Assembly: GCF_025699295.1 (NCBI RefSeq)
Contig: NZ_JAILWB010000007.1
Location: 62,001 to 126,000, forward strand
DNA length: 64,000 nucleotides
Direction: 5' to 3'
Source of the DNA: Hydrogenophaga sp.
Lineage (GTDB): Bacteria; Pseudomonadota; Gammaproteobacteria; Burkholderiales; Burkholderiaceae_C
Shown here: in pieces, positions 25,793-28,873 of the stretch
Layout: each line of letters begins with the position of its first letter
How positions within the stretch are numbered: position 1 is the stretch's first letter
Notes under the pieces: model-generated
Databases searched by the model: none
What the model was told of the DNA's origin: nothing
Seen by the model: only the letters and a program-made list of their open reading frames with translations
Made by a program: the position numbers and the translations under genes

Positions 25793-26803
25793 ATGAACCA
25801 CACCGAAACCAGGCAGCACCTGTTGTCCCGCCGCCAGCTGCTGGGGATCGCACCCTGCGCCGCCTTCGCCGCCACCCTGGCGCCCATGGCCTGGGCGCAG
25901 GCGGATTTCCCGAACCGGCCGATCCGTGTGATCGTGCCGCAGCCGCCCGGTGGTGGTTTTGATTTCGTGGGGCGCCAGCTCGCCGAGCGGCTGGCCAAGG
26001 GCATCGGCCAGGCCGTGGTGGTGGAGAACCGCACTGGTTCGGGCACCCTGGTGGGCACAGACGCGGCGGCCAAGGCCGCGCCCGACGGCTACACGCTGCT
26101 GACGGGATCGGTATCCAACATGGTGCTGAACATGGGCCTGTACAAGCAGCTGTCGTACGACAGCCTGAAGGACTTCGAGCCCGTGGGCCTGGCGGTGAGC
26201 TACAGCTACACCCTGGTGGCGCGCAACGGCATGCCGTTCAACAACCTGGCCGAGCTGGTGGCCTACGCCAAGGCCAACCCGGGCAAGCTGACCTACGCCT
26301 CCGCCGGCAACGGTTCAGGCCAGCATGTGCTGGCAGCGGCCCTGTGGAACCAGGCCGGCGTGGACGTGGTGCACGTGCCGTACCGTGGCGCGCAGGCCGC
26401 CTACGCCGACCTGCTGGGCGACCGCGTGGACCTGTTCTTCGACCTCACGCCCACCACGCGCGGCCATGTGGAGTCGGGCAAGCTCAAGGCGATCGCGGTC
26501 TCTGGCGCCGAGCGCAATGCCCTGCAGCCGAACGTGCCGACCATCAACGAGTCCGGTGTGGTCCAGCTTGATCTGGAGTCCTGGTTCGGCTATTTCGCGC
26601 CCAGCAAGACGCCGGCCGACGCACTGGAGCGCCTGCGCACGGAACTGGCGAAGGTGATTGCCACGCCCGAGCTGCAGGAGACCTTCCGCAAGGCCGGTGG
26701 CACGCCCATGAAGGTGAGCGTGAGCCAGGCCCGCACCATGCTGCAGCGCGACGTCACGCGCTGGACCGGCCTGATCCGCGCGGCCAACATCAGCCTGGAT
26801 TGA
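25793..26803 (+). CDS. Bug/TctC-type tripartite tricarboxylate receptor, 1
   Basis: 336 residues. A Tat-like signal (SRRQLLGIAPCAAFAATLAP) ends near AWAQADFPNRP. The mature part has the Bug family pattern: IRVIVPQPPGGGFDFVGRQL, VENRTGSGTLVGTDAAAKAA and VDVVHVPYRGAQAAYADLLG. Bug proteins are periplasmic binders of carboxylates, aromatic acids or amides, and usually lack a cognate membrane gene nearby, as here. Probably a receptor or sensor for the growth substrate or a relative. Confidence 0.9.
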   Translation: MNHTETRQHLLSRRQLLGIAPCAAFAATLAPMAWAQADFPNRPIRVIVPQPPGGGFDFVGRQLAERLAKGIGQAVVVENRTGSGTLVGTDAAAKAAPDGYTLLTGSVSNMVLNMGLYKQLSYDSLKDFEPVGLAVSYSYTLVARNGMPFNNLAELVAYAKANPGKLTYASAGNGSGQHVLAAALWNQAGVDVVHVPYRGAQAAYADLLGDRVDLFFDLTPTTRGHVESGKLKAIAVSGAERNALQPNVPTINESGVVQLDLESWFGYFAPSKTPADALERLRTELAKVIATPELQETFRKAGGTPMKVSVSQARTMLQRDVTRWTGLIRAANISLD

Positions 26804-26825
26804 GCGCCCACCGTTTTCCTTTCCT

Positions 26826-26848
26826 TCTCTCTCTCTCTCTCTCTCTCT
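26826..26848 (+). repeat. (TC)n dinucleotide tract
   Basis: An uninterrupted run of 11 TC units plus a T lies 11 bases before the nitroreductase ATG, where a ribosome site should be. In the frame of an upstream TTG (26800) it would encode repeated Leu-Ser. Such tracts are prone to slipped-strand changes. Confidence 0.9.
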
Positions 26849-26859
26849 TCCACATCACC

Positions 26860-27444
26860 ATGACCATCGACGCGAAAGCCCTTGACCAGATCTTCCTCAA
26901 GGCGCGCACCGCCAACGGCTTCATCGACAAACCCGTGCCCGACGAGCTGCTGCGGCAGGTCTACGACATTGCCCGCATGGGACCAACCTCGATGAACACG
27001 CAGCCCACGCGCTATGTGTTCCTGAAGACGGCCGGGTCGCGAGCGCGCCTGCTGCCCGCGCTCACGCCGGGCAACCTGGACAAGACGCGCGCCGCGCCGG
27101 TGACGGTGATCGTGGCCACCGACACGCGCTTCTATGAGTTCATGCCCAAGGTGTGGCACCGCGAGGGCGCGAAGGAAAACTTCGAGGGCAACCCGGCGCT
27201 GGCCGAGGCCACGGCCACGCGCAACGGCACGCTGGGCGGCGCCTACTTCATCATCGCCGCGCGCGCGCTCGGGCTGGACTGCGGGCCCATGAGCGGCGTG
27301 GACCTGGCCAAGGTGAACGCGGAGTTTTTTCCCGACGGGCGCTGGCGCGCCAATTTCCTCATCAACCTGGGCTACGGCGACGACGCCAAGCTGTTCGATC
27401 GCAATGCGCGGCTGGGGTTTGACGAGGCGTGCCAGGTGCTCTGA
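26860..27444 (+). CDS. Nitroreductase-family protein, RutE-like (malonic semialdehyde reductase type)
   Basis: 194 residues from ATG 26860; a TTG at 26800 extends the frame through the TC tract. The FMN-binding nitroreductase fold is shown by FLKARTANGFIDKPVPDELL, ARMGPTSMNTQPTRYVFLKT and the SGVDLAKVNAEFFPDGRWRA-NFLINLGYGDD end. This is the pattern of RutE, which reduces malonic semialdehyde to 3-hydroxypropionate in pyrimidine breakdown. Here, last in the dioxygenase-TRAP operon, it may reduce a semialdehyde or enone intermediate. It ends at the structured repeat pair. Confidence 0.82.
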   Translation: MTIDAKALDQIFLKARTANGFIDKPVPDELLRQVYDIARMGPTSMNTQPTRYVFLKTAGSRARLLPALTPGNLDKTRAAPVTVIVATDTRFYEFMPKVWHREGAKENFEGNPALAEATATRNGTLGGAYFIIAARALGLDCGPMSGVDLAKVNAEFFPDGRWRANFLINLGYGDDAKLFDRNARLGFDEACQVL

Positions 27445-27472
27445 GCGTTGTTGCGCGCTGCCGCCTCGCGAC

Positions 27473-27679
27473 GAGGGGCAGGGCTCTGCCGCCGAGGGCT
27501 TCAGGTGCGTGGCCCGGTGCAATGCACCGGGTACCCTGCGGTGCTCGCTGCCCGGGGCGATCGCGCAAACTCGCTTCGCTCAGACATGCGCGATCGACCG
27601 CGCGTGCCGCGCGGCAACCCCGGTCAACTGCGCTCCTCGGCCACGCACAGGCGCCCCCGGCGGCAGAGCCCGGCCCCTC
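27473..27679 (-). ncRNA. Structured repeat element, copy A (unnamed; RNA or DNA palindrome)
   Basis: Read on the minus strand. A basal stem pairs 27473-27494 with 27658-27679 (21 of 22 positions) and continues inward. Then come an 8-bp stem (27505-27512/27641-27648), the motif CCGAGGAGCGCAG (27640-27628) and a 6-bp stem CCGGGG/CCCCGG (27623-27618/27557-27552). A GC hairpin with GCA loop follows, then a 10-bp hairpin (27596-27587/27567-27558) with a 19-nt loop. Last are GAGCACCGCAGGG (27546-27534) and a 9-bp hairpin (27531-27523/27521-27513). Copy B shares the motifs and order, not the stem sequences. I do not recognise a named family. Open frames across it look like artefacts. Confidence 0.7.
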
Positions 27680-27691
27680 TGGACGACCTTG

Positions 27692-27703
27692 TTGGCGCGC
27701 CAA
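27692..27703. repeat. Palindrome at the centre of the element pair
   Basis: TTGGCGCGCCAA, a perfect 12-bp palindrome, sits in the 34-base gap between copies A and B, within a base of the midpoint of the whole inverted block. It could be the tip of a cruciform formed by the two copies, a protein site or a junction scar. Confidence 0.6.
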
Positions 27704-27713
27704 AGCCTCCCTC

Positions 27714-27921
27714 GTCAGGGATGGGCACAGGGTCTTGGCGGCGCATGTGCGGCGCCGAGGAGCGCAGGGGACTCAGGTAGCCGCGCGCAGCGCGGTCAAG
27801 TTCGCATGTTTGAGCGAAGCGAGTTTGCGAACTTGCCTGAGGCCGAGAGCACCGCAGGGCAGTCCTCGCGCAGCGAGGGCCGCTGCATTCAAGCCGTCAA
27901 GGCCCTGTGCCCATCCCTGAC
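27714..27921 (+). ncRNA. Structured repeat element, copy B (unnamed; RNA or DNA palindrome)
   Basis: Read on the plus strand, 208 nt. The basal stem 27714-27742/27893-27921 pairs over 29 positions with two G-T pairs. A second stem is 27745-27753/27879-27888 with a bulge. Then come CCGAGGAGCGCAG (27755-27767), stem CTCAGG/CCTGAG (27772-27777/27836-27841), hairpin CCGCGC-GCA-GCGCGG (27781-27795) and a 10-bp hairpin (27797-27806/27826-27835). The last hairpin's 19-nt loop matches copy A at 18 of 19 bases. GAGCACCGCAGGG (27847-27859) and hairpin CCTCGC-GCA-GCGAGG (27864-27878) follow. Stems differ from copy A yet pair, which implies selection for structure. It lies 27 bases from the LysR stop. 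Confidence 0.7.
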
Positions 27922-27948
27922 ATGCCAACCCGCCATGGCAGAAGGCCA

Positions 27949-28836
27949 TCACCCCGCATGCCCCGACGCAGCCCGCCGGATCACGGACGCCATGTGTTTG
28001 ACCGTTGGCGAGCGGTTGCCACCCTTTTTCCACAGCAGGCCGGGCGTGCGGATCGGCGTCGGGTCTTCCAGCGGCACCATGCGCAGACCGGCCGACGGCG
28101 AGACGGCGGTCTCCGCGATGATGCCGGCCAGGTCGGTCTGGCGGATGAGTTCGAGCATGGGTGCGATCGAGTTGAGCTGCGCGATCACCAGCGGCTGCGC
28201 GCCCGCGGCCTCGAAGCAGTCGTCCAGCAGCTTGCGGGTGGAGAACTGCGGTGGCAGCAGCACCATGCGGCAGCGGTTGAGTTCGATCATGCGCACGCGC
28301 CGCCGCTTCGCGAAAGGGTGCTTGTCGGCCACCACCAGGCGCAGTTCCTCGTTGTAGAGCGGCTCGAACCACAGCTCGGGTCGGTCCTGCGGCCGGTACG
28401 ACACACCCAGATCCAGGTGGCCGCTGGCGATGCGCCGGGCGATCAGCTCGGCCGAGAGCTCCTCGACCGTCACGCGCATGCCGGGGTGGTAGGCCAGGAA
28501 GGACGACACGCACAGCGGCACCAACCGCGTGTTGAAGCTGTGCGTGGTGCCGATGCGCAGCTCGCCCGAGATGGCCTCCGGTTCGCGGCTGAGCGCCTGC
28601 AGGCCCCGGTCGATCTGCTGCAGCGCCGGCACCAGGTGGCTGCGCAGCATCTCGCCCGCCTCGGTCAGCGCTACACGCTTGTGGCCGCGGTCGAACAGCA
28701 CCAGGCCCAGTTCCTCCTCCAGCTGCCGGATCTGGTGCGACAGGGTGGATTGCGTCACGTGCAGGCGTTCGGCCGCGCGCGTGAAGTTGAGCGTGTCGGC
28801 CACGGCGTCGAAATAGCGGACGTGTCTGAGTTCCAT
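27949..28836 (-). CDS. LysR-family regulator, divergent from the second hydroxyquinol dioxygenase
   Basis: 295 residues from ATG 28836 (MELRHVRYFDAVADTLNFTR), the standard LysR start; in-frame Met codons further upstream would lie across the operator. HTH: RAAERLHVTQSTLSHQIRQL. The effector domain begins LRIGTTHSFNTRLVPLCVSS. The closest family pattern is CynR/CbbR/BenM-like. It is transcribed away from the dioxygenase at 28946, with a perfect palindrome in the gap. It probably activates the second module in response to a ring-cleavage intermediate. Confidence 0.9.
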   Translation of the reverse strand: MELRHVRYFDAVADTLNFTRAAERLHVTQSTLSHQIRQLEEELGLVLFDRGHKRVALTEAGEMLRSHLVPALQQIDRGLQALSREPEAISGELRIGTTHSFNTRLVPLCVSSFLAYHPGMRVTVEELSAELIARRIASGHLDLGVSYRPQDRPELWFEPLYNEELRLVVADKHPFAKRRRVRMIELNRCRMVLLPPQFSTRKLLDDCFEAAGAQPLVIAQLNSIAPMLELIRQTDLAGIIAETAVSPSAGLRMVPLEDPTPIRTPGLLWKKGGNRSPTVKHMASVIRRAASGHAG

Positions 28837-28852
28837 GGCATATCCCATTTGC

Positions 28853-28873
28853 ATCATCGATGACATCGATGAT
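28853..28873. promoter_or_regulatory. Perfect 21-bp dyad, likely LysR operator
   Basis: ATCATCGATG-A-CATCGATGAT is a perfect inverted repeat around one base, 16 bases upstream of the LysR start codon and 73 bases upstream of the dioxygenase. It contains the T-N11-A core typical of LysR recognition sites. Its position suits both autorepression and activation of the divergent operon. Confidence 0.75.

Follow-up and report, generated by a model that had tools for sequence, protein, structure and literature searches.

REPINs are inverted pairs of REP sequences that occur with RAYT (Y1) transposases, and they offer the nearest precedent for the locus described here. Integrons supply a second point of reference, with one direct attC site for each gene cassette. 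In the portion of the literature drawn on here, REP sequences are 20-40 bp long (PMC3733652). The Betaproteobacterial repeat element, BRE, is described in the excerpt consulted as intergenic and ~90 bp long, with some copies in tandem clusters and a number per locus that varies by strain (PMC3110155). Burkholderiales-1 appears in the part of its source used here as a candidate structured RNA of the Burkholderiales, in a table that gives it no Rfam number (PMC2864571). In the literature searched we found no description of the element reported below, BRE and Burkholderiales-1 being compared by description alone.

The locus lies within a 64,000-nucleotide stretch of Hydrogenophaga sp. DNA, hereafter the window, and consists of two inverted hairpins placed between two convergent open frames. 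Its features are listed below; the spacer, the centre palindrome and the loop motifs are read directly from the sequence.

26800..27444, plus strand: left neighbour, an open frame whose 3' end faces the pair
27473..27679, minus strand: hairpin A, the left half, with basal stem, P2, loop motif, P3 branch and P4 hairpin
27534..27546, minus strand: loop motif 2 of A
27628..27640, minus strand: loop motif 1 of A
27680..27713, no strand: spacer of 34 nt between the heads, the position of cargo in 13 other pairs
27692..27703, no strand: centre palindrome TTGGCGCGCCAA, common to both heads
27714..27921, plus strand: hairpin B, the right half, with a basal stem ending GTCAGG...CCTGAC
27755..27767, plus strand: loop motif 1 of B, CCGAGGAGCGCAG
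27847..27859, plus strand: loop motif 2 of B, GAGCACCGCAGGG
27924..27929, plus strand: tail GCCAAC of B, which complements the head GTTGGC at 27691-27696 to give the outermost short stem
27949..28866, minus strand: right neighbour, an open frame whose 3' end faces the pair

We take the left neighbour to be a nitroreductase-like gene, and the right one is presumably a gene for a LysR-type regulator. A first-pass annotation of this DNA had proposed two inverted copies of one unnamed element, and the coordinates it gave for both proved correct. The two copies fold strongly, with energies of -150.7 and -138.5 kcal/mol and z-scores of -8.4 and -10.5 against 200 dinucleotide shuffles, none of which folded as well as either copy. 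The basal arms are 93% complementary both in A (27473-27499 with 27653-27679) and in B (27714-27742 with 27893-27921), and the basal stems of the two halves are unlike each other. When A and B are aligned, 130 of 205 letters are alike and the two single-stranded motifs are identical, as the annotation had said. Its assignment of the copies to one family was borne out by a hold-out covariance model, for which 26 copies from elsewhere served as the training set and the window was left out; this model retrieved both at an E-value of about 1e-20. By this model, for which the tool's E-values are rough, A matches at 27500-27653 (E 9.8e-21) and B at 27742-27893 (E 1.8e-20), and the next-best match in the window has an E of 0.17. 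The genome to which the window belongs has exactly two GAGCACCGCAGGG sites, those of A and B; tails like the GCCAAC of B were seen in other Hydrogenophaga copies. The annotation had recognised no riboswitch or ribozyme in the element. In agreement with this, no family of Rfam release 15 matched the window copies at gathering score, nor positions 27300-28100 at E ≤ 1, and the hairpins of 10 other loci gave no match at gathering score; on this ground a riboswitch or ribozyme identity was rejected. The sole Rfam match in those 10 loci, a xanthine riboswitch (RF03054) at L113:2374-2428, lies away from the hairpin pairs of the same locus.

The element is dispersed well beyond this genome. Matches to a pattern of the two motifs were found in 18 of 66 Hydrogenophaga genomes, in 70 of 399 genomes of the family (38 of 141 genera) and in 3 of 369 genomes across the class, and a reversed-pattern control gave 0 in the genomes listed. 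Two of the three class-wide matches are Hydrogenophaga; the third, G630, belongs to another family of the class and carries a distant head-to-head pair at L319:1788-2244, with covariance-model E-values of 3e-13 and 0.001. Named genera among the matches listed are Rubrivivax, Pelomonas, Roseateles, Aquabacterium, Thiobacillus, Ramlibacter, Ideonella and Methylotenera, and one match (L201) lies in a record labelled Spongiibacteraceae. Across copies each half measures ~204-253 nt and has several branches, whose order is conserved across genera. Carriage by phage or plasmid was set aside, there being no exact pattern match in viral contigs and no match in plasmids for one unit at E 1e-8.

We examined the structure in an alignment of 58 copies (A2), two from locus L220 and 56 from 78 representatives of the 149 good copies among 216 found. 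The 71 predicted pairs, arranged in 12 helices, are paired in 92.0% of 4000 cells, compared with 63.7% in shuffles and 37-44% when the partners were slid, a comparison inflated for the slid versions by the derivation of the structure from the same 58 sequences. Both sides have changed in 64 of the 71 pairs, and covariation is 0.648 versus 0.176. In the helix formed by loop motifs 1 and 2, three pairs are invariant and one covaries (A-U in 32 copies, G-C in 25 and C-G in 1).

In long palindromes one arm can be made to match the other, and such homogenisation would mimic double changes. On this account the hairpins would be inert palindromes with arms kept alike by template switching and a structure under no selection. 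However, homogenisation is strand-symmetric and does not predict what we observed in the inner P3 helix, where 202 distinct copies hold 117 G.T and 5 A.C oppositions, a count inflated by related copies and to which strand-biased deamination could contribute. These copies were chosen by their loop motifs and not by P3, and 2 with <5 of 9 Watson-Crick pairs were dropped. Over all helices the numbers are 143 and 36, a biased count in that the stem finder scored G.T as neutral and other mismatches as -2. Because a G.T on one strand of double-stranded DNA is an A.C on the other, neutral decay would yield the two equally; the excess therefore places the sense strand under selection as a folded single strand, either RNA or single-stranded DNA. 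Nor does the account of inert palindromes predict the invariant loop positions or the conserved branch order, and we disfavour it, assigning it a probability close to negligible.

The same 117 to 5 imbalance fits an RNA, as do the three pairs of the loop-motif helix that never vary. The hairpins could thus be structured RNAs at transcript 3' ends, acting as an insulator, a terminator or an RNA protector, in which case their spread would be slow and incidental and their conservation would reflect RNA function. The arrangement of the hairpins bears on this possibility. Among 317 hairpins, a deduplicated set from which 26 repeats were dropped, 243 have an opposite-strand head partner, 216 of them within 400 nt and 27 at 400-3000 nt. 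A same-strand neighbour at the head was seen for 3 hairpins and an opposite-strand neighbour at the tail for 2; for 58 no partner was detected, and 13 lie at sequence edges. The gap is <400 nt in 111 of 125 pairs (a count that still includes one repeat, L300 being L091), with a median of 53 nt among the 111. Given this head-to-head layout, a transcript starting inside the pair would exit through a sense hairpin. A rough orientation count points the same way, with 27 of 101 units between convergent genes versus 89 of 542 background gene pairs; we rejected a convergent-gene terminator on the strength of so mild an enrichment. Left out of the count were 32 clusters at edges, 17 far ones, 5 with no gene and 5 duplicates. 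It also places 63 of the 101 units between tandem genes, which weighs against the RNA explanation, although the heuristic behind the calls put at least one known site (L075) in the wrong place.

In the motif searches alone, 73 of the 83 pairs of neighbouring matches had faced each other head to head, and many apparent motif singles turned out to have a partner ~46 nt off, with a plain helix in place of the loop motifs. One half is without the two loop motifs in 33 of the 125 pairs. Since so many motif singles pair head to head with a motif-less partner, we set aside the single hairpin as the unit. Twelve further loci of the family, picked with one motif match, gave 9 head-to-head pairs, along with a single (L287), a locus at an edge (L294) and one arranged tail to tail (L299); the 8 loci picked for two motif matches were all pairs (L281 being L146 again). 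These arrangements point to the inverted pair, not the lone copy, as the apparent unit. Its two ends are mostly unlike, in that the basal arms are <60% identical in 29 of the 34 pairs with both stems measured and random arms have a median of 52%. Two stem types recur in Hydrogenophaga, GTCAGG...CCTGAC and GCCGAGGGC...GCCCTCGGC.

A second, smaller and unlike hairpin, AGCGAAATAAAGG..GGAGG / GGRGGACATTCGCG (also AGCGAAATAAAGG / GGACATTCGCG), is present in 22 of 66 Hydrogenophaga genomes, with examples at L253, L254, L257-L259, L317 and L318. One of its positions is a covarying purine-purine pair, with A facing G in some copies and G facing A in others, as exemplified by AAAGGAGG/GGGGGAC and AAAGGGGG/GGAGGAC. 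Among the matches listed, this family has 16 neighbours within 400 nt, and all are minus then plus, that is, head to head. The sequence TTGGCGCGCCAAC, found in the centre palindrome of the window pair, also occurs in the spacer of the second family at L317. That unlike hairpins adopt the same head-to-head layout argues that the layout is the functional feature.

Comparison of orthologous sites revealed occupied and empty versions. Of 66 genomes searched, 5 have a contiguous window site, the joined flanks matching across the junction with unaligned gaps of 11-59 nt in the four inspected; the second site of the window's own genome (site 2) is contiguous in 12 of 66, with gaps of 30-122 nt in the five inspected. 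Genome G009 has one hairpin with the GTCAGG stem at the window site. In G052 the orthologous site holds an unrelated CTTCGACAGGCTCAGCCCGAACGG-type repeat cluster instead (L246:687-1095). Seven other loci at site 2 include five with second-family hairpins and two with neither family, and the second family also occupies the L076 site, like site 2, in other species. Elsewhere, the ~555-nt unit of L074 (G008) is represented in L304 (G033) by 2 nt between flanks 95% and 89% identical, and the L090 unit is represented in L312 by 15 nt between flanks 98% (left) and 91% identical. Empty counterparts were also found for L076, L077/L079 and L091. Eight loci (L301, L302, L306, L308-L311 and L313) have extra DNA at the same anchors and no hairpin, which means that hairpin units are not the sole source of variation at those sites, and part of the cargo variation described below may be ordinary gene turnover. 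L302 (G033:C9:234400-243000), which has the anchors of L091, holds ~7.4 kb of such DNA.

Dispersal within a genome is seen in one Rubrivivax MAG. The sequences at both ends identify 17 units there, which are 93% alike on average over the 60 pairs compared out of 136 and have left flanks 37.5% alike. The Rubrivivax ACE_PRO12 loci (for example L114, L121 and L137) have an outer inverted repeat, CGGYTTGCGGCGCNTTGCGGNCGTTCG, which stands 29-65 nt to the left of 16 of the 17 units and 34-37 nt to the right of 13. No target-site duplication was evident by eye at the 17 Rubrivivax units or the clean empty sites, the exact ends of the units being uncertain. The RNA explanation leaves unexplained these 17 near-identical units in unrelated flanks, the clean presence and absence at single sites, and the inverted pairing; we judge it unlikely.

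The first-pass annotation had suggested a search of related genomes with a covariance model and a comparison of the site between relatives. Copies are indeed common among relatives, and the same sites do exist in occupied and empty form. It had also named two outcomes that would count against it, an absence of copies elsewhere and stems gathering unpaired changes. Neither was seen, the stems staying paired through double changes. Its suggestion that the element may be a structured RNA, or else a palindromic repeat able to relocate from one intergenic site to another, is supported by the copies, the covariation and the empty sites; it was incomplete in that the unit appears to be an inverted pair and that some pairs enclose genes.

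Most units, including that of the window, have no cargo. Thirteen pairs enclose 418-2399 nt, and the GC content of the enclosed DNA is below that of the flanks in all 13. Protein matches inside pairs include putAbiC, MauJ, DUF1963, DUF6678 and a weak MalM, along with unnamed ORFs, and one cargo has a YoeB-like toxin with a DUF642/PEP-CTERM protein. One cargo protein is present in 1 of 66 genomes, and defence models gave weak AbiP/AbiC matches for 1 of 10 proteins. Beyond the 13 pairs, L252 has OmdA and HTH genes inside and a right hairpin that is internally deleted. One of the 13 pairs, that of L216, holds nothing but a disrupted IS110 transposase (L216:4373-5359), flanked by one truncated and one intact hairpin; given the broken frame and the truncated hairpin beside it, we rejected it as an autonomous form.

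The second pair of the window's own genome (L220:2916-4051) surrounds a low-GC frame of 150 aa without a Pfam match, and its flanking genes are presumably GST-like and cupin-like. At this GST/cupin site three species (G000, G008 and G033) agree in stem types and orientation and hold three different cargoes, and ~80 nt beside the left head are common, by eye, to two of the three variants. Both observations would be expected if the pair were a landing pad residing at set intergenic positions, its cargo swapped between pads by homologous recombination in the hairpin arms. However, the pair itself is absent from the same site in other genomes, so that such pads would have to come and go, and the great majority of pairs have the short gaps (<400 nt) noted above. 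We consider such cassette exchange very unlikely.

Our search for a mover covered Y1 transposase genes and yielded no mover. Of the 66 Hydrogenophaga genomes, 57 have a Y1 gene, usually single copy and RAYT-like (for example L260:1638-1931); many of these lack the element, whose pattern occurs in 18 of the 66. None of the 20 Y1 loci examined has a hairpin beside the gene. A Y1/RAYT transposase as the mover is unsupported, as it neither tracks nor adjoins the element.

Collectively, these data lead us to propose, with moderate confidence, that the window pair is a non-autonomous, REPIN-like mobile unit with two hairpin ends and a putative trans-acting mover. In this model, the two hairpins (207 and 208 nt here) would be the ends of a unit that moves as a pair, and an enzyme would act on it in trans. 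The folded strand would be what this mover recognises, and accessory genes would ride between the heads in a minority of units. Several results count against the model: no target-site duplication was evident by eye, no mover emerged from the search of Y1 genes, 58 of 317 hairpins have no detected partner, eight loci hold extra DNA but no hairpin at shared anchors, the searches of viral contigs and plasmids gave no match, and one cargo protein is confined to 1 of 66 genomes. A further reading starts from the 3' ends of the unit, where either strand terminates in a fold-back hairpin selected in that very strand, and from the two unlike hairpin families with the same head-to-head layout in one genus. 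The unit could then be a mobile gene cassette with two different hairpin telomeres, copying itself from its 3' ends like the terminal repeats of rolling-hairpin replicons, within a bacterial chromosome; we regard this as distinctly unlikely. If the model of a REPIN-like unit is true, the Burkholderiales carry a widespread unit whose accessory genes lie between two folded, strand-specific ends. Such a unit would link palindromic intergenic repeats, structured RNA or single-stranded DNA, and gene-cassette traffic, subjects that now stand apart. Material for its test is ready: one genome offers 17 near-identical units, and close relatives offer empty sites.

How far the element resembles described systems differs from one system to the next. 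It shares with BRE the character of an intergenic repeat of Betaproteobacteria, but its halves are 204-253 nt long and only 3 of 317 hairpins have a same-strand head neighbour, which sets it apart from BRE as the excerpt describes that element. With Burkholderiales-1 it shares the standing of a candidate structured RNA of the Burkholderiales; set beside the description in the excerpt, identity is neither shown nor excluded. MITEs and other non-autonomous transposons are likewise dispersed, with inverted ends and presence or absence at sites, and most Rubrivivax units have a short outer inverted repeat of this kind. In contrast to MITEs, no target duplication is evident here (by eye, the ends being uncertain) and no parent transposase was found in the search of Y1 genes, and the ends are long structured hairpins selected as one strand. 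The likeness to REPINs is closer: both consist of palindromes set in inverted orientation across a short spacer, both are intergenic and dispersed, and most copies have no enzyme gene inside. The two inverted palindromes that define a REPIN are found here as well, in the 243 hairpins, out of 317, whose heads face a partner on the opposite strand. The halves, however, are ~204-253 nt, multi-branched and co-varying, as opposed to REPs of 20-40 bp in the source portion cited above; the basal stems are unlike, some pairs enclose genes, and the element is not linked to a RAYT/Y1 gene. Finally, like integron attC sites, these are structured single-strand palindromes beside small accessory genes of deviant composition, but each unit has two inverted hairpins where a cassette has one direct attC.
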